Assembly: GCA_902727905.1 (NCBI GenBank)
Contig: CACVAR010000149.1
Location: 1 to 33,929, forward strand
DNA length: 33,929 nt
Direction of reading: 5' to 3'
Source: an uncultured Sulfurovum sp.
GTDB lineage: Bacteria > Campylobacterota > Campylobacteria > Campylobacterales > Sulfurovaceae
The notes under the pieces are model-generated. The model ran no database searches, was not told the origin of the DNA, and saw nothing but the letters and a program-made list of their open reading frames with translations. The position numbers and the translations under genes were made by a program. How positions within the stretch are numbered: the first letter of the stretch is position 1; the number at the start of each line of letters is the position of its first letter. This document shows, in pieces, positions 2,654-25,830 of the stretch.

Positions 2654-2699
2654 CCTAATGCACAAGAAGTATTTTAGTTACAGATACTTCTTGTGTTAG
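2654..2699. repeat. Palindromic repeat element, copy 1 (CACAAGAAG-type)
   Basis: A perfect 12-bp inverted repeat, CACAAGAAGTAT (2661-2672) and ATACTTCTTGTG (2684-2695), has an 11-base loop. It can be extended by CTAA/TTAG beyond a 2-base bulge. The same arm sequence, (C)CTAACACAAGAAG, forms the ends of a second, larger element at 6991-7100. There is no T-tract, so it is not a classical terminator. It lies in the probable leader of the CAP gene. Confidence 0.6.
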
Positions 2700-2732
2700 T
2701 GTCGTGCATCTATAAATATAATGGAGAGTATC

Positions 2733-3959
2733 ATGAAAAAACAATCGCATACTTTTATAATAGGAGGATTTGTCCTCTTTGCTACATACCTCTATTATCT
2801 TTCAGCTACACCTATCCCTGATCCCTTAACAATTAAAGAAGTACCCAAATTAAATATTCAAGTAGAAGAACAAAATGCACTTAACTATCTAAACTCTTTA
2901 CGCATAGGTGCTGGTCTTGTTCCTTTTCAAAGTCAACACCAACTAAATAAAGCAGCTAGAAGTCATGCCAACTATTTAACGAACCATTTTACTTATGGAC
3001 ACCAACAACAAGCAATACATAAAGATTTTACTGGAAAGTTTGCTTCCTCGCGTGTAACCCATGCAGGCTATGCTACTCCTCTAGTGATAGAAAATGTTTC
3101 AACCCATAATCAAAACTATAAAGAGTCAATCAATGGTCTTTTCTCTGCCATCTACCACCGTTTAGCATTTTTGGATTTTCGTTCAGATGCTATAGGTATT
3201 GGTATTAGCCAACATAGACATCAAAAACAGCAAACAGCTTTTGTTTATAATATGAGTTCAAAAACCTTAGAAACACTCTACAAAAAAAATAAAAATGCAA
3301 GCTCTACAGAGATTAATCAAGCGCTGAATAGTAATAAAAAACGTAATCAAAATGTTGTTATTTATCCTTTTAACAAGCAACAAGGCGTACCTCCTGCATT
3401 TTTTGATGAACTACCAGACCCTCTCCCAGAGCATAAAGTAAGTGGTTTCCCTATAAGTGTTTCTTTTAATTCAGCTTTTCATAAAGAGGGGAAACTCTTA
3501 AAGTTTGAACTCTATAATAATGATGGTGTTCAAATACATAATACGTTAAAATTTAACCATCAAACAGATCCCAACAAACGTTTAGAAAAACTAGACTTCG
3601 TGCTTTTCCCACTAAAAAGACTTGAATGGAATAGTAAGTACCATGTAAAATTCCTAGCAATTATTGATAAAGAGATAGTAAGTAAAGAGTGGAGTTTTCA
3701 AACACAAAAATTTAATATACCTCTTCATGTTATCAATCATAACAATCATGTTTTTACCGTTAAAGAAAATCACTCTCGTATTTTTTATTTTCCTCCAACA
3801 TCTAAAGTAGATCTATTACAAGATATTGCTTATCCTTCTAATGTAGACATTGAGTTTATAGACAAAAACACCATTAAACTAACAGCCCTCGCCAGTATAC
3901 AACGTAAACAAAAACTATCCATTGGGAAATACCATTTAACTTTAGACATCAGAAGATAA
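2733..3959 (+). CDS. Membrane-anchored CAP/SCP-domain protein
   Basis: The ATG at 2733 is preferred over the in-frame ATG at 2721 because GGAGAG lies just before it, giving 408 residues. An N-terminal signal or anchor helix (about residues 8-25) predicts a periplasmic or surface location. Residues 45-180 form a CAP (SCP/PR-1-like) domain: ALNYLNSLR at the start, SHANYLTNHF with a conserved His, IENVSTH with the conserved Glu, and the YHRLAFLD helix before a DAIGIGI strand. The remaining 220 residues look like beta-rich domains of unknown type, possibly an Ig-like fold around WNSKYHVKFLAII. Bacterial CAP proteins have been linked to cell-envelope functions, but no specific activity can be assigned. 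It is followed 17 bp later by the RNA methyltransferase gene, with which it may be cotranscribed. Confidence 0.8.
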   Translation: MKKQSHTFIIGGFVLFATYLYYLSATPIPDPLTIKEVPKLNIQVEEQNALNYLNSLRIGAGLVPFQSQHQLNKAARSHANYLTNHFTYGHQQQAIHKDFTGKFASSRVTHAGYATPLVIENVSTHNQNYKESINGLFSAIYHRLAFLDFRSDAIGIGISQHRHQKQQTAFVYNMSSKTLETLYKKNKNASSTEINQALNSNKKRNQNVVIYPFNKQQGVPPAFFDELPDPLPEHKVSGFPISVSFNSAFHKEGKLLKFELYNNDGVQIHNTLKFNHQTDPNKRLEKLDFVLFPLKRLEWNSKYHVKFLAIIDKEIVSKEWSFQTQKFNIPLHVINHNNHVFTVKENHSRIFYFPPTSKVDLLQDIAYPSNVDIEFIDKNTIKLTALASIQRKQKLSIGKYHLTLDIRR

Positions 3960-3976
3960 TGCTGATATAATTCTTT

Positions 3977-4753
3977 ATGTATTTAACCAGCATTGACAAT
4001 CCCAATATTCCAGAACTTCTTATTTATCAACAACTTCGTGACAATGCTTTTACAGAAGACAACTCTTTTATTGCCGACTCAGCTAAAGTTGTAAACCTAA
4101 TCTTGGAAACTGGTATAGAGGTAAAAAGTATATTTGCTACGCAAGAGTACTATAATGAGTTCGCTACACTTATAGAAAAAAAGAACATCCCTAAACTTTA
4201 TGTTGCAACAAAAGAACTCATGCAAACCATTGTTGGACATAAAGTACACCACAATGTTATGTTACATGGCATACGTCCTAGTCAAATAAAGATTAATGCA
4301 CTGGACAAAGAGATTGTCATGCTAGACAACATTACTTCAAGTGAAAATGTAGGCTCCATAGCCCGTTCAGCTACTGCTTTAGGCATAAACTCTTATATGC
4401 TACCCAAACAAGGTCCTCACCCCTTTGGGAGACGTGCTTTAAGAGTTTCTATGGGACATACAAGCCACTTAAAGACACATCTATATGATGATATAAAAAC
4501 CACACTCAAAGAGCTAAAGACTAGGGGTTACACCATTTATGCAGCTGAAATTACTGAAACATCAACTCCCTTGTCTAAAGTAACAGTTTCGGATAAATGG
4601 GTTTTACTCATGGGTCATGAAGGTCATGGCATTTCAGAAGATATACTAGAACTCTGTTCAGAAGTGGTACACATAGAAATGGAACCCAACATTAAAAGTT
4701 TTAACGTTGCTGTAGCAGCTTCAATTCTTATGTATAAATTTAAATTTAAATAA
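3977..4753 (+). CDS. SpoU/TrmH-family RNA 2'-O-methyltransferase
   Basis: 258 residues, matching the SPOUT class (TrmH/SpoU, RlmB-like) that transfers a methyl group from S-adenosylmethionine to a ribose 2'-OH in rRNA or tRNA. The knotted C-terminal domain shows the three usual motifs: motif 1 with the N-S-E-N-V-G-S-like stretch SSENVGSIARSATALG, motif 2 WVLLMGHEGHGIS, and motif 3 IKSFNVAVAASILMY. The N-terminal 100 residues are the substrate-binding extension typical of RlmB/TsnR-like enzymes. The start has no clear Shine-Dalgarno sequence, so coupling to the upstream CAP gene is possible. The exact target nucleotide cannot be deduced. Confidence 0.88.
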   Translation: MYLTSIDNPNIPELLIYQQLRDNAFTEDNSFIADSAKVVNLILETGIEVKSIFATQEYYNEFATLIEKKNIPKLYVATKELMQTIVGHKVHHNVMLHGIRPSQIKINALDKEIVMLDNITSSENVGSIARSATALGINSYMLPKQGPHPFGRRALRVSMGHTSHLKTHLYDDIKTTLKELKTRGYTIYAAEITETSTPLSKVTVSDKWVLLMGHEGHGISEDILELCSEVVHIEMEPNIKSFNVAVAASILMYKFKFK

Positions 4754-4803
4754 AAAATTTAATATTTCACAATTAAAACACAACTTTAATTTATACTTAT
4801 GCC

Positions 4804-4960
4804 ATGAGAGTCATTCATACTGTTTTCCCTTCATGATGATTTTACTGGCTCTCATCAATTAGCTTTTACTTCATACTTTTCTCTTCCCACCCGACTTTAT
4901 TTGGTCAGGGTAAAAGCTATTTTATTACTACATTAATAAATCATCATACTTTTTTCTCCT
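4804..4960. repeat. Tandem structured repeats in the intergenic region
   Basis: Two successive stem-loops occur. Stem 1 is ATGAGAGTCA (4804-4813) with TGGCTCTCAT (4846-4855), including one G-T pair. Stem 2 is TAGCTTTTAC (4860-4869) with GTAAAAGCTA (4910-4919). The 5' side of each loop carries the related sequence TCATACT(G)TTTTC(C)CT (from about 4815 and 4871). A third copy of that motif follows at about 4944. No open reading frame of worth covers the region. It may be a terminator region, a small RNA or decayed repeats. Confidence 0.4.
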
Positions 4961-5010
4961 TTTAATACTTCTTTAGATACATTGTCGCTAACTAGCATAG
5001 AGGAATAACA

Positions 5011-5898
5011 ATGAAAACTGACAAACTAAAAGGACTCATTTGGTGTTCACTACTTGGTGATGCCTATAGCTTAGGGGGACATTGGATTTATGACCAAGAA
5101 CAACTAGCAAACTCTACCCTTAACTTTAATGGTTTAAACGACCCACTATCTAACTATCATTCTACTAAAAAAGCAGGAGACTTTACCCACTATGGAGACC
5201 AAACAGTTTGGCTTTTAGAACACTTACAAGAAACCAAGAGCTATGATCCGTTTGATTATGCTAGCTACTGGCAAAAGAGCATGAGTAACTACAATGGATA
5301 TAAAGATGGTGCATCTGAAGCTTCTTTAAAAAACCTTAATGATGGGAAATCTTTTATGGGCTGTGGGTCTGACTCTACCGATTTATCAATTGTAGGTAGA
5401 CATTCTCCTTTATTGTTTACATTAAAAAATATAGATGAATTATTAGAGAGTATTAAACTCCATAACTGTTTAACACATTTAAGTAAAGAGACTTTAGATG
5501 CGAGTAAATATATTATGGAAGTTACGTTGGCAATGATCTATGATTTAGATGTTGAAAAAACTTTAAAGGAACGTTCAGTCTTTTATGGTGATATGGTTGA
5601 GGAAGAAGTTTCAAAAGCTTTTTTATTAAAGAACAAACCTGCTAATGAAGCACTACAAGAACTAGGTATCTCATGTGATGTCAAAGGTGGTTTAGCCTCA
5701 ACTGTCTATTTACTCCTTAACTATCACAATGATTTTACTGCTTTACTCAAAGCTAATCTACTCGCAGGAGGAGACTCAGCATCAAGAGCAATGGTTGCTG
5801 GAATGGTTGTGGGGGCAAAATATGGTTTTGAAGCTACTAAGCCAGCATGGATAAAAGAGCTTAATCAATATGAAAAGTTAAGTGAACTTATCAATTAA
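5011..5898 (+). CDS. ADP-ribosylglycohydrolase-family protein, divergent metal site
   Basis: 295 residues of the DraG/ADP-ribosylglycohydrolase fold, which normally removes ADP-ribose using two Mg2+ ions. The N-terminal LLGDAYSLGGHWIYD (G16, D17) and the C-terminal LLAGGDSASRAMVAG are the family landmarks. The usual S/T-D-D triplet appears here as HYGDQT (D63). The usual C-terminal GGDTDT is GGDSAS (D255, A257), so one acidic metal ligand is replaced. This resembles a subgroup of bacterial J1-crystallin-like homologues and suggests altered catalysis or another substrate. AGAGGAA precedes the ATG. No ADP-ribosyltransferase partner is adjacent. Confidence 0.8.
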   Translation: MKTDKLKGLIWCSLLGDAYSLGGHWIYDQEQLANSTLNFNGLNDPLSNYHSTKKAGDFTHYGDQTVWLLEHLQETKSYDPFDYASYWQKSMSNYNGYKDGASEASLKNLNDGKSFMGCGSDSTDLSIVGRHSPLLFTLKNIDELLESIKLHNCLTHLSKETLDASKYIMEVTLAMIYDLDVEKTLKERSVFYGDMVEEEVSKAFLLKNKPANEALQELGISCDVKGGLASTVYLLLNYHNDFTALLKANLLAGGDSASRAMVAGMVVGAKYGFEATKPAWIKELNQYEKLSELIN

Positions 5899-5908
5899 GC
5901 TTTGTGAG

Positions 5909-6403
5909 TCATAAAGTGAACAGCTTTAAATAGATAAATATAAGTACTATTCCCCCAACAGCAAAAAAGAAATGCTCCTTTGGGTTTGACTCAATAAAGA
6001 AAATATCCATAGATTTATTGTTAGAAAGAAAGTAAATAGGAACAATAAAGAGTAACGCCCAAACCACATTAGTCAATATCACTTCCATGCTGCTAAAAAT
6101 TTCCTCATAATCAACAGAGAAAAGAAGTACGGAGCTATCCAGTAAAAAGTTTGCTACGAAAGGAAATAGTGCTATACTGTAAAGTGTCACCAAAGTAAAT
6201 GCTCTTGCGAACTTACAACGAAGTAAAATACCAGCAATCATAAAAATACCCAAAAGAATGGGTAAAATTTTTATTAAGAGTGGGGTTTCTTCATCTATTA
6301 TCACTTGCACTAGCAGAAAACTTAATGCGAAGGCTATTAACCAAATAATCACTACTGTTAATTTCTTTTTAAAAGAACTTCCATCAGAGTAAAGCGTTAA
6401 CAT
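5909..6403 (-). CDS. Integral membrane protein of unknown function
   Basis: 164 residues, not recognised. There are about five hydrophobic helices (residues 15-35, 43-60, 65-88, 105-125 and 143-162) with short connecting segments. The N-terminus is Ser/Lys-rich and probably cytoplasmic. AAGGAA lies just upstream of the ATG at 6403. The gene converges on the ADP-ribosylglycohydrolase gene with a 10-bp gap and stands alone on its strand, divergent from the hemoglobin gene. No signature residues suggest transport or catalysis. Confidence 0.6.
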   Translation of the reverse strand: MLTLYSDGSSFKKKLTVVIIWLIAFALSFLLVQVIIDEETPLLIKILPILLGIFMIAGILLRCKFARAFTLVTLYSIALFPFVANFLLDSSVLLFSVDYEEIFSSMEVILTNVVWALLFIVPIYFLSNNKSMDIFFIESNPKEHFFFAVGGIVLIFIYLKLFTL

Positions 6404-6540
6404 ATGTTTTTCCTTATTTCTATATGTTACATTATATCAAATATATATTATTCTATAATAAGATTATTTAGTCAATTTTATTTATTAAGTATTAAGTTAT
6501 TTTCTACTATAAATAGCTCCATATAATATGAAGGTAAAAC

Positions 6541-6981
6541 ATGAACTACAGTATCATCCCACACAATGCAAATTACGTTCCACAAGTACAAAAACCAAAC
6601 GCAACATTCTTAGCTCAGGTTGGTGAACAGGGAATTCGAGACTTACTATCACGTTTTTATGTCTGTTTAGACCAAAGTGCCATTAGAGACATATTTCCAG
6701 CTAAAGATGCTGCAGAGATGGAAAAGGCTGCACAAACTTCTGCTGACTTTTTCATACAAATCTGTGGTGGACCAGCCTATTTTAACCAGAGACATGGAAT
6801 GCCTAAAATGCGTCAAAGACATATGCCTTTTACCATTACAGCTGAAGGAAGACTTCATTGGTTAATTTGTTTTGAAAATGCATTACAACCTTTAGAGAGT
6901 TCAGTTAAAGAGGAAGACTTACAAAGTTTTTGGGATTATCTTAATACTTTTTCAATTATGATGATTAATGCGCACGGTTAG
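6541..6981 (+). CDS. Group II truncated hemoglobin
   Basis: 146 residues. The segment GGPAYFNQRHGMPKMRQRHMPF is the group II (trHbO-like) signature. It includes the proximal heme-ligand histidine of RQRHMPF (His94) and the group II tryptophan Trp107 in LHWL; Tyr40 is a likely B10 tyrosine. Proteins of this group bind O2 or NO and take part in NO detoxification or oxygen handling. The N-terminal 20 residues form a short extension common in the Campylobacterota versions. GAAGG lies 7 bases before the ATG, and a TATAAT-like box sits just upstream. It differs from the group III hemoglobin Ctb of Campylobacter jejuni. It is transcribed alone and followed by a hairpin at its stop codon. Confidence 0.88.
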   Translation: MNYSIIPHNANYVPQVQKPNATFLAQVGEQGIRDLLSRFYVCLDQSAIRDIFPAKDAAEMEKAAQTSADFFIQICGGPAYFNQRHGMPKMRQRHMPFTITAEGRLHWLICFENALQPLESSVKEEDLQSFWDYLNTFSIMMINAHG

Positions 6982-6996
6982 GAGTTAAGTCCTAAC
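6977..6996 (+). terminator. Hairpin at the hemoglobin stop codon
   Basis: GTTAGGA (6977-6983) and TCCTAAC (6990-6996) form a perfect 7-bp stem with a 6-base loop, and the stop codon (6979-6981) lies in the 5' arm. The 3' arm is shared with the left end of the larger element at 6991-7100, so the two structures are mutually exclusive. There is no T-tract. A role in termination or mRNA protection is inferred. Confidence 0.4.
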
Positions 6997-7100
6997 ACAA
7001 GAAGTAAAAGGGAGGAAGAATATAATGAATTTAGGGAGGTTTCATTAGAAATAATATAAGCTTAGTAAAACTAAGCGTTACAAAACCTTCTTGTGCTAGG
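6991..7100. repeat. Palindromic repeat element, copy 2, with branched interior
   Basis: The ends CCTAACACAAGAAG (6991-7004) and CTTCTTGTGCTAGG (7087-7100) are inverted repeats with one mismatch in 14. They enclose two further stem-loops: TAATGAA/TTCATTA (7023-7029, 7041-7047) and GCTTAG/CTAAGC (7060-7065, 7071-7076). The outer arms match the arms of the element at 2654-2699. The 110-bp unit could be a MITE-like mobile palindrome or a structured RNA in the hemoglobin 3' region. A promoter-like sequence for the next operon begins just after it. Confidence 0.55.
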
Positions 7101-7101
7101 C

Positions 7102-7133
7102 TTGACGTATTATATAAGTATTTCGTGTATAAT
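7102..7133 (+). promoter_or_regulatory. Candidate promoter of the DUF4178 operon
   Basis: TTGACG at 7102-7107 and a perfect TATAAT at 7128-7133 are separated by 20 bp, longer than the ideal 17. The box lies about 70 bp before the first start codon of the operon. It is the best sigma70-like match in this gap. Confidence 0.4.
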
Positions 7134-7204
7134 ATGTGTAGTAATATAGCTTATACAAATAATTATTAAAATAATAAATTATACCTAAGGAAAATCTTTA
7201 GCTC

Positions 7205-7822
7205 ATGTCAAACCCAAAAGAGACTGAAAAACATCATAACTGTCCACAGTGTGGAGATAGACTCAGTATATTTTTTAAGTACTCTAAACTCATTAAGTGT
7301 CAATCATGTAACTCCTCAATTTTTTTAGAAGATGAAAGTGTCAAACTTATTGGTGAAAGTTCCGTATTAAGTTCTGAGCCATCTCTTATTCAACTCTATC
7401 AAAGATTCAAACTCCAAGGAAAAACATTTATACCCCTAGGAAAAATACGTTATGACTATGGTCGAGGTTTTTGGGAAGAGTGGTTTTTAAATGATGAACG
7501 CAACAAAGAGTTTTGGCTTAGTATTGATGAGGGTGATTTTGTTTTAGAAGAAAAAAATAAGCTCTCTCTTCCTTTTAAAGACTTTTCTAAATTTACAGTT
7601 GGATCTCGTCATGGTAAATACATTGTCACTGAAAAAGGTGAAGGTACTTGTATAGGTTTTGACGGTGAACTAGCAGAAGAAATTAAAATGGGTGAAAAAC
7701 ACCAATATATTCATCTAAGTCAAGGTGGTGGTAACCTTGTCACACTTGAGTTGACAAAAACATCAAGCCAAACTTTTAAAGGTAAATGGATTGACCCCTT
7801 GGACATTGAGGTACTTAACTAA
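7205..7822 (+). CDS. Zinc-ribbon DUF4178 protein (short)
   Basis: 205 residues. A four-cysteine zinc ribbon is visible at C13-x2-C16 and C32-x2-C35. It is followed by a domain resembling DUF4178 (about residues 60-200), a small beta-rich domain of unknown biochemical function with conserved GxWxEWFL-like and WLS(I)DEGD segments. There is no signal peptide or membrane helix. An AAGGAAAA purine run lies 13 bases before the ATG, unusually far, so initiation may be weak. It overlaps the next, larger DUF4178 gene by one base (TAATG) and is its smaller paralogue. From general knowledge, DUF4178 genes occur with DUF350 and aminopropyltransferase-like genes; such genes are found here 11 kb downstream. 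Confidence 0.75.
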   Translation: MSNPKETEKHHNCPQCGDRLSIFFKYSKLIKCQSCNSSIFLEDESVKLIGESSVLSSEPSLIQLYQRFKLQGKTFIPLGKIRYDYGRGFWEEWFLNDERNKEFWLSIDEGDFVLEEKNKLSLPFKDFSKFTVGSRHGKYIVTEKGEGTCIGFDGELAEEIKMGEKHQYIHLSQGGGNLVTLELTKTSSQTFKGKWIDPLDIEVLN

Positions 7823-9159
7823 TGAGTCAAGTTAAAAGCATTAAATGTACTAACTGTGCTGCGCCACTTGACCTTCTAGGTGGTGGACGTGTTGAAAGTA
7901 TTACTTGTCCTTACTGTAAATCAGTGCTTGACCTAAATGAAAACTATAAAGTGCTAAGTAACTTTAAAAACAGTAGAAAATTACATAAACTGCCTTTTGA
8001 AATAGGTATGAAAGGTCAACTTAACAGCATTGATTACACCATTATTGGTAGAGTTACTTATCAATCCATTAACTATCCAGATTCTATTTGGACAGATTTT
8101 TTACTCTATTCACCTCTTTATGGTTATGCCTATTTGACCTATGAAGATGGACACCTCATCTACTCGAAACGTAACCGAACTTTTCCCAACGTAACATGGT
8201 CACAACTTACAAAACAATCCTCTATTCTTGTCAATGGAAATGATTACAATCCTTTTGACCAGTATGAGGCTAAAGTTATTTACGTTGAAGGTGAACTAAC
8301 ATGGATAGCCAAACGTAATGACAAAACATACTTTACAGACTTAGTCAACCCACCCCATGGTATTAGTGTTGAAAAAACAAAAAATGAAATTGAGTATTAT
8401 GAAGCTAAATATTTAGACAGTGATGAAGTTTACACTGCCTTTAACATTGAAAAGCAAGAAAAACCTAAAACATTTAATGCTTTACAACCTTTTGAACGTC
8501 CATTTTTAAAATCACTCTCTTACATTGCTTATTGGGTTCTATTCATTGTTGCACTATTGACACTTGTTACCTATGTAGATGGTTCAGGAAAAGTCATTAC
8601 AAAGATTGCTGCCAATAATGAAGCTGTAAAGCATCTTGACTTTAGAGTAAAACATAAACGCTATTTAGTTGACCTAGAGTTACAAGCTTCAACATCCAAA
8701 GCACTCAATAACTTTAACCTACAAATTCATAAAAATAAAAAGATTGTCTTTTCTCTAACACCACATACAGCTTATATTTTTAATGAGACAACAGGTTCTG
8801 TAGAAAAAAATCTACACCCTTGGGAAAAAGATAGTAAAAAAGTACGTGTTTCCCTTAACTTAGCTTTAGGAAACTATCATCTAAGTATTAAGCCTATTAA
8901 TCCAAGTCTGAAAAGTACACTGTTTGTTAATATTACAGAAGCTTCATCACGGCTCAACTATTTGGTTTGGTTCTTTATCTTTACAACTTTCTCGTGGATA
9001 CTTTACAAGTTCTATCAATGGCGACATAAACTAAAAGTTGATGATGAACGAGGAATTGATATGATACATGACAATGCAAGGTATAGTGGGAGTCGTGAAC
9101 AAATGACGCTCTATCTTATTGTACTCGCCATAATACTAATCTTAGTATTTGGTGAGTAA
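7822..9159 (+). CDS. Zinc-ribbon DUF4178 membrane protein (long)
   Basis: 445 residues. The N-terminus has a zinc ribbon with C9-x2-C12 and C29-x2-C32, and residues 50-200 form a DUF4178-like domain (FEIGMKGQLNSIDYTIIGRV at its start). A membrane helix at about 231-250 is followed by a beta-rich, probably extracytoplasmic domain (260-370). Two more helices lie at about 377-398 and 428-444. The protein would therefore connect a cytoplasmic zinc and DUF4178 part with a domain across the membrane. The start codon overlaps the stop of the shorter paralogue, so translation is coupled. Its C-terminal codons contain the palindrome AATACTAA-TC-TTAGTATT (9132-9149). Function is unknown; a membrane-stress role is inferred from gene neighbourhoods of the family. 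Confidence 0.75.
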   Translation: MSQVKSIKCTNCAAPLDLLGGGRVESITCPYCKSVLDLNENYKVLSNFKNSRKLHKLPFEIGMKGQLNSIDYTIIGRVTYQSINYPDSIWTDFLLYSPLYGYAYLTYEDGHLIYSKRNRTFPNVTWSQLTKQSSILVNGNDYNPFDQYEAKVIYVEGELTWIAKRNDKTYFTDLVNPPHGISVEKTKNEIEYYEAKYLDSDEVYTAFNIEKQEKPKTFNALQPFERPFLKSLSYIAYWVLFIVALLTLVTYVDGSGKVITKIAANNEAVKHLDFRVKHKRYLVDLELQASTSKALNNFNLQIHKNKKIVFSLTPHTAYIFNETTGSVEKNLHPWEKDSKKVRVSLNLALGNYHLSIKPINPSLKSTLFVNITEASSRLNYLVWFFIFTTFSWILYKFYQWRHKLKVDDERGIDMIHDNARYSGSREQMTLYLIVLAIILILVFGE

Positions 9160-25730: not shown

Positions 25731-25830
25731 AAAGTAACTTATAGATTTGCTTAAGTTACTTTAACGAACTAAAGTAACTTATAAATTATCTTATGTTACT
25801 TTAACGAACTAAAGTAACTTATAAGTACTA
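25731..25830. repeat. 40-bp tandem repeat with internal palindrome (2.5 units)
   Basis: Units at 25731-25770 and 25771-25810 and a half unit at 25811-25830 all begin AAAGTAACTTATA; the two full units end GTTACTTTAACGAACT. Across each junction GTTACTTTA-acgaac-TAAAGTAAC forms an inverted repeat, giving two hairpins or operator dyads. The half unit runs into the last codons of fic. The spacing is exact at 40 bp. The middle parts of the units (TAGATTTGCTTAA versus TAAATTATCTTAT) differ at several bases. Confidence 0.7.

Follow-up and report, generated by a model that had tools for sequence, protein, structure and literature searches.

A putative minus-strand RNA closed by a covarying stem

The window analyzed here, the whole 33,929-nt stretch of contig CACVAR010000149.1 from an uncultured Sulfurovum sp. 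(assembly GCA_902727905.1), carries two palindromes, element 1 (2654-2699) and element 2 (6991-7100), and comparison with related genomes indicates that element 2 seems to be the closing stem of an undescribed, conserved and roughly single-copy structured RNA, encoded on the minus strand from about position 7103 to 6989 (Table 1). We hold with moderate confidence that this is a trans-acting small RNA (sRNA) of ~115 nt that would be activated by a copper-type regulator and whose CU-rich stretches would block the ribosome-binding sites (RBSs) of mRNAs. The comparison supports the conserved structure, the strand-specific promoter and a promoter box common to copper-type genes; we infer expression, copper as the signal, the identity of the regulator, target pairing and repression.

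The aligned orthologues of element 2 form a block of constant extent. Between species the letters of the closing stem, P1, shift from CACAAGAAG/CTTCTTGTG to CATAGAA/TTCTATG or to further variants without loss of pairing; 93% of its cells were paired, as against 31-47% when the partner strand was slid, and in 6 of the 12 pairs (17 cells) both sides were changed. Element 2 thus combines compensatory pairing with its own one-strand promoter at a fixed distance (18 of 18 loci), as a structured noncoding RNA should. Folding compared with dinucleotide shuffles gave z = -7.0 on the minus strand and z = -4.1 on the plus strand, and a covariance model matched 6989-7103 on the minus strand with an E value of 1.5e-19 (its own sequence being part of the model). 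In the promoter alignment, comprising 18 sRNA loci from 17 genomes, the minus-strand consensus is the direct repeat CTACAC-N6-TACAC and then, at a fixed distance of 10 nt, TATNNT, which is followed after ~5-6 nt by AAGCCUAACAUAGAA, a variable hairpin (P2) and the conserved core UCAAUGAAAMCUCCCUAAAUUCAUUAUAUUCUUCCUCCCUUUU, with UUCUAUGUUAGGAC at the end. The conserved inner hairpin, P3, displays ACCUCCCUAA, its loop being CUCC(C/U) in nearly all rows of alignment A1, and the CU-rich stretch that follows, unpaired in all four relatives folded, contains UUCUUCCUCCC; both sequences are complementary to RBSs.

Table 1. Predicted features of the sRNA locus and of element 1 (window coordinates)
Feature	Position	Strand	Remarks
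Predicted sRNA, ~115 nt	6989..7103	-	5' end placed from the -10 element; 3' end uncertain, possibly to ~6977
P1, 5' strand, CCTAGCACAAGAAG (right arm in the sequence-only reading)	7087..7100	-	6/12 P1 pairs doubly changed
P1, 3' strand, CTTCTTGTGTTAGG (left arm in the sequence-only reading)	6991..7004	-	6/12 P1 pairs doubly changed
P2, variable hairpin, GCTTAGTTTTACTAAGC	7060..7076	-	Folded in this sequence; sequence and position differ between species
P3, conserved hairpin, AATGAA-ACCTCCCTAAA-TTCATT, CCUCCC loop	7024..7046	-	Hardly varies in alignment A1
CU-rich stretch without pairing, ATATTCTTCCTCCCTTTTA, complement of an RBS consensus	7005..7023	-	Conserved in alignment A1
Short hairpin, GTTAGGA-GTTAAG-TCCTAAC	6977..6996	.	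Overlaps the globin stop codon and the P1 3' strand; from the sequence itself
-10 element of the sRNA promoter, TATAAT	7109..7114	-	TATNNT at identical offset from the box, 18/18 loci
Regulator box, CTACACATATTATACAC, direct repeat TACAC, 11-bp period	7125..7141	-	Upstream of the sRNA; TACAC-N6-TA(C/A)AC in 18/18 loci
Element 1, hairpin in the leader of a CAP-domain gene at 2721/2733-3959	2660..2696	+	Outside the sRNA; hairpins at the same place in relatives

Both arms of the short hairpin at 6977..6996 are altered together in genome G014 (CTTAGGA/TCCTAAG), and the hairpin lacks a U run; it is possibly a two-way terminator or an alternative fold. A tandem second copy of the sRNA was observed in G022 (L094, G022:C53:17195-17535), with its own box and -10 element, an altered P3 hairpin and weaker C-rich loops; this copy appears to keep a hairpin at the place of P3 with different letters.

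Distribution and genomic setting

The genus sample consisted of 34 genomes, and the homologues came from Sulfurovum-type vent metagenome-assembled genomes (MAGs). BLAST searches of the genus with 6968-7125 as the query returned orthologues, in most genomes a single one and frequently incomplete. The covariance model matched 17 of the 34 genomes at E <1e-11 (many of these sequences being in the model), and G008 added a weak match (E 0.07) accompanied by the box, the -10 element, the stem and a TCTTTTTC tail, giving a total of 18 genomes. In a sample of 200 genomes of the order, only weak matches (E 0.07 or worse), none of them convincing, were obtained outside the genus, and a pattern scan of 84,980 GTDB genomes recovered ten contigs, all from uncultured Sulfurovum or Campylobacteraceae MAGs or one marine-rock MAG. 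The core pattern had no match in the viral contigs of IMG/VR, and viral spread of element 2 was rejected on this ground. Rfam gave no match at the gathering score or at E <= 5, and 6S RNA and retron msr-msd were discounted solely for their architecture and context.

In this genome the locus lies between a globin gene and a DUF4178 gene. The flanks of some orthologues are alike, with globin upstream and DUF4178 downstream, and those of others are quite different. Because the promoter is kept while the neighbouring genes change, the sRNA probably forms a transcription unit of its own and is not the leader of any one gene. Two consecutive DUF4178 genes (7205-9159) follow the sRNA locus in several relatives.

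A promoter box shared with copper-type genes

The pattern of box plus -10 element occurred at 57 sites in the 34 genomes, compared to 6 sites for the reversed control. The commonest protein-coding partner of the box is the DsbD gene, including the copy of this genome (G000:C191), and the box also precedes genes for a CueO-like multicopper oxidase, a YtkA protein, a P-type ATPase with a heavy-metal-binding domain (HMBD), a resistance-nodulation-division (RND) protein of the CusA/CzcA family, an OmpR-type response regulator, SoxX and a malate:quinone-oxidoreductase-like protein; in addition, a conserved box site lies upstream of SoxY. In G015 the gene order is RND pump, response regulator, kinase, boxed multicopper oxidase, boxed YtkA, and outer-membrane and fusion proteins, while in G022 and G164 regulator genes lie near a multicopper oxidase and a boxed gene. 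An operator common to copper genes is thus found beside regulator genes, and the simplest reading of this gene content is that the box is the putative operator of a copper-type two-component regulon that probably includes the sRNA. As in copper two-component systems of the CopRS, CusRS and CrdRS type, OmpR-type regulator and kinase genes adjoin those for a CusA-type pump and a multicopper oxidase, and a direct-repeat operator is usual for that class; TACAC-N6-TACAC is not known as the CusR box of E. coli, and the regulon described here differs from these systems in also taking in sRNAs with CU-rich loops. At L279, L283, L284, L286, L290 and L295, the conserved box and TATACT lie ~120-170 nt upstream of SoxY and two AT-rich hairpins come next, without a C-rich loop, unlike the other sites.

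The same gene set can be read in another way, namely that the minus-strand sRNA is real and that periplasmic thiol/redox or sulfur-oxidation stress, not copper, is what its regulon responds to, as the frequency of dsbD among the boxed genes and the sites before SoxX, SoxY and the malate:quinone-oxidoreductase-like gene would suggest. However, where regulator and kinase genes adjoin the box, their neighbours are of the copper-type efflux and multicopper oxidase kind, and we consider the thiol or sulfur signal unlikely, although it is the alternative to be taken most seriously.

Proposed action and candidate targets

In the proposed mechanism, a copper-type response regulator of the OmpR class (like CopR, CusR or CrdR) would bind over the -35 region, at the TACAC direct repeat, and activate the sRNA along with dsbD and copper-defence genes. 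The trans-acting sRNA of ~115 nt would be a minus-strand transcript of the interval that separates globin from DUF4178. Stem P1 would hold the RNA, with the CCUCCC of the P3 loop and the unpaired UUCUUCCUCCC presented, and both CU-rich stretches would pair with the Shine-Dalgarno/start regions of target mRNAs, blocking their translation. The core sequence UUCAUUAUAUUCUUCCUCCCUUUU is the complement of a typical RBS with start codon (AAAAGGGAGGAAGAAUAUAAUGAA), and accessible CU-rich sequence complementary to RBSs is present both in the conserved loop and in the unpaired stretch. Predicted duplexes with the RBS and AUG of the co-regulated dsbD ranged from -10.7 to -20.9 kcal/mol in twelve genomes; dsbD is a candidate target only.

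Several observations weigh against this interpretation or parts of it. The P3 stem is almost without covariation, no clear rho-independent terminator was found in most species, and about half of the genus has no detectable copy, in part owing to the incompleteness of the MAGs. In the ranking of 427 gene starts no target stands out, and dsbD takes rank 20 in this genome. Furthermore, copper as the signal is read from neighbouring genes only, and the SoxX and SoxY sites suggest a wider one.

Action mainly in cis on the convergent globin gene, as its antisense RNA or terminator, would agree with the position of element 2, which here and in several relatives begins at the stop codon of globin and converges with that gene. 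We nevertheless regard it as improbable, as other genomes carry element 2 with the same loops away from globin (L093, L098, L099-L104 and L108). The conserved block might also be a DNA or plus-strand feature, i.e., an operator, a DUF4178 leader or a tiny open reading frame (ORF; ATGAATTTAGGGAGGTTTCATTGA), and in this genome a promoter-like TTGACG-17-TATAAT match at 7103-7133 is accompanied by a Shine-Dalgarno-ATG-like sequence. In relatives, however, the frame of the mini-ORF is broken by changing stops and one-base indels, which argue against a conserved plus-strand peptide, the promoter-like plus-strand match is lost, and the plus-strand -10 letters are not conserved, in contrast to the minus-strand -10 element found in 18 of 18 loci. 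The mini-ORF and the cis leader were both rejected, since neither the frame nor the downstream gene is conserved, and a plus-strand or DNA feature as a whole is most improbable.

Relation to known sRNAs

The CCUCCUCCC-motif ('cuckoo'/CcsR) sRNAs of Alphaproteobacteria are linked to stress and display CCUCC in loops; compared by description only, they belong to another phylum and have smaller hairpins and other promoters than the trans-acting sRNA proposed here. Within the phylum, pairing with the RBS has a tested precedent in CJnc190 of C. jejuni, likewise a structured sRNA, whose C/U-rich loop pairs with the RBS and start codon and whose locus has a cis-antisense partner, CJnc180 (PMC8687705). 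CJnc190 has no known sequence relation to the present sRNA and has a different promoter, whereas the sRNA described here is tied to a copper-type box. RepG of Helicobacter pylori, which acts in trans on G-rich leader repeats (PMC8322730), and the trans-acting, RpoN-dependent CJnc230 of C. jejuni, which carries an anti-Shine-Dalgarno motif (PMC11187230), are alike in manner of action and phylum and differ in structure, promoter and context. No paper on sRNAs of Sulfurovum-type vent bacteria and no copper-induced sRNA of Campylobacterota were found in the open-access literature. Overall, the sRNA family is apparently real and undescribed; Sulfurovum-type vent bacteria would gain an sRNA family with a promoter, an operator and a probable signal, and metal stress would be linked to the riboregulation by CU-rich loops known from C. 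jejuni and H. pylori.

Further predicted RNAs with CU-rich loops at box sites

At some box sites no gene starts nearby. Besides the element-2 family, such sites comprise RNAs that a stem closes and that carry UUUCCCCCCUCCCCC or CUUCUCCCC loops (L285, G017:C8; L314, G015:C31; L275, G002:C150) and a boxed hairpin displaying UUCCUCCU (L298, G012:C46). In the G017/G015 pair of RNAs, the stem shows compensatory differences (GAGTCACA/TGTGGCTC versus GAGCCATA/TATGGCTC). Boxed RNAs with CCUCCU, CUCCUU or CUCCUCC were also found in another family of the order, in G175 (L304, G175:C78) and G164 (L306, L312); the L304 RNA, like element 2, has a globin-type neighbour. A CUCC(Y)-type motif lay within 90 nt at 23 of 26 gene-less box sites; among boxed gene leaders it occurred in 2 of 34, and among intergenic 90-mers in 8.6%. 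The figure is descriptive because the motif was picked after these RNAs had been seen. Since 17 of the 26 sites belong to the element-2 family, independent support for the motif comes from six of the nine others, with one homologous pair (G015 and G017) among the six; the three sites lacking it are of the SoxY type. The G175 RNA has the motif and was classed as gene-led, as a gene starts 121 nt further on.

We propose, tentatively and with more doubt than confidence, that in marine Campylobacterota the sRNAs driven by a copper-type two-component system form a functional class: their scaffolds are unrelated, they are spread over two families, and all of them carry CU-rich loops complementary to RBSs. 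If this recurrence under one operator holds, copper stress would broadly tune translation initiation, the regulon and its operator rather than RNA sequence or homology would define the sRNA class, and its signal and targets would be directly testable.

Element 1 and the shared arms

The sequence-only reading had joined the two palindromes, on account of their common arms, as mobile palindromes (miniature inverted-repeat transposable elements, MITEs, or repetitive extragenic palindromes, REPs) or as one family of structured RNA. Both palindromes are indeed present, and the 13-mer CTAACACAAGAAG is common to their arms, which are alike over 13-15 nt between two hairpins 4.3 kb apart. The arms of element 1 lie at 2660-2674 and 2682-2696, the left outer arm (CCTAATGCACAAGAAG) being one base longer than CTAACACAAGAAG; those of element 2 (6991-7004 and 7087-7100) are 14 nt long, 93% complementary and 82 nt apart. 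With up to 2 mismatches, CTAACACAAGAAG has 5 matches in the window, compared to 1.7 expected. In the 2.6-Mb draft genome, the search for these arms as inverted pairs gave no further copy; the sole other exact CTAACACAAGAAG is single and unpaired, as were all other CACAAGAAG copies inspected (30 of 53 loci).

Element 1 folds well against dinucleotide shuffles (z = -6.2, plus strand) and stands in the leader of a gene for a CAP-domain secreted protein, divergent from a TetR gene. At the same place in G022, G009 and G025 there are inverted arms with different letters, the fold being clear in G022 and G025 and weak in G009; more distant species lack the hairpin. The arms of element 1 are thus not conserved where the flanks and the position of the hairpin are, and only in this genome do they match the stem of the sRNA. 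Element 1 was rejected as an sRNA target through the shared arms, since strong pairing (~-20 kcal/mol) occurs only in this genome, whereas pairing in G022, G009 and G025 is no better or only slightly better than with shuffled leaders.

Elements 1 and 2 are hairpins without relation to each other, their common letters being peculiar to this genome, and the arm identity may reflect chance or a recent copying event. The proposal of a structured RNA holds for element 2, where 6 of the 12 stem pairs have changed on both sides with pairing kept, though for another reason than the shared arms, and fails for the joining of the two. That both are copies of a non-autonomous mobile element (MITE-like or REP/REPIN-like) with fixed ends and a variable interior has the common arm in its favour and is extremely improbable: each element occurs once per genome, the search for inverted pairs gave no dispersed family, element 1 does not keep its arms, and element 2 is an orthologous unit with a conserved interior that sits with its own promoter in 18 genomes. 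In some of these genomes element 2 lies in other neighbourhoods. An attC-like recombination site, which the CCTAAC...GTTAGG ends resemble in its core sites, was considered and set aside only because the interior letters are conserved across species and the element has its own promoter and about one copy per genome. Elsewhere in the window, at 25752-25821, lie two adjoining near-palindromes of the TAAGTTACTTTAACGAACTAAAGTAACTTA type, each self-complementary.

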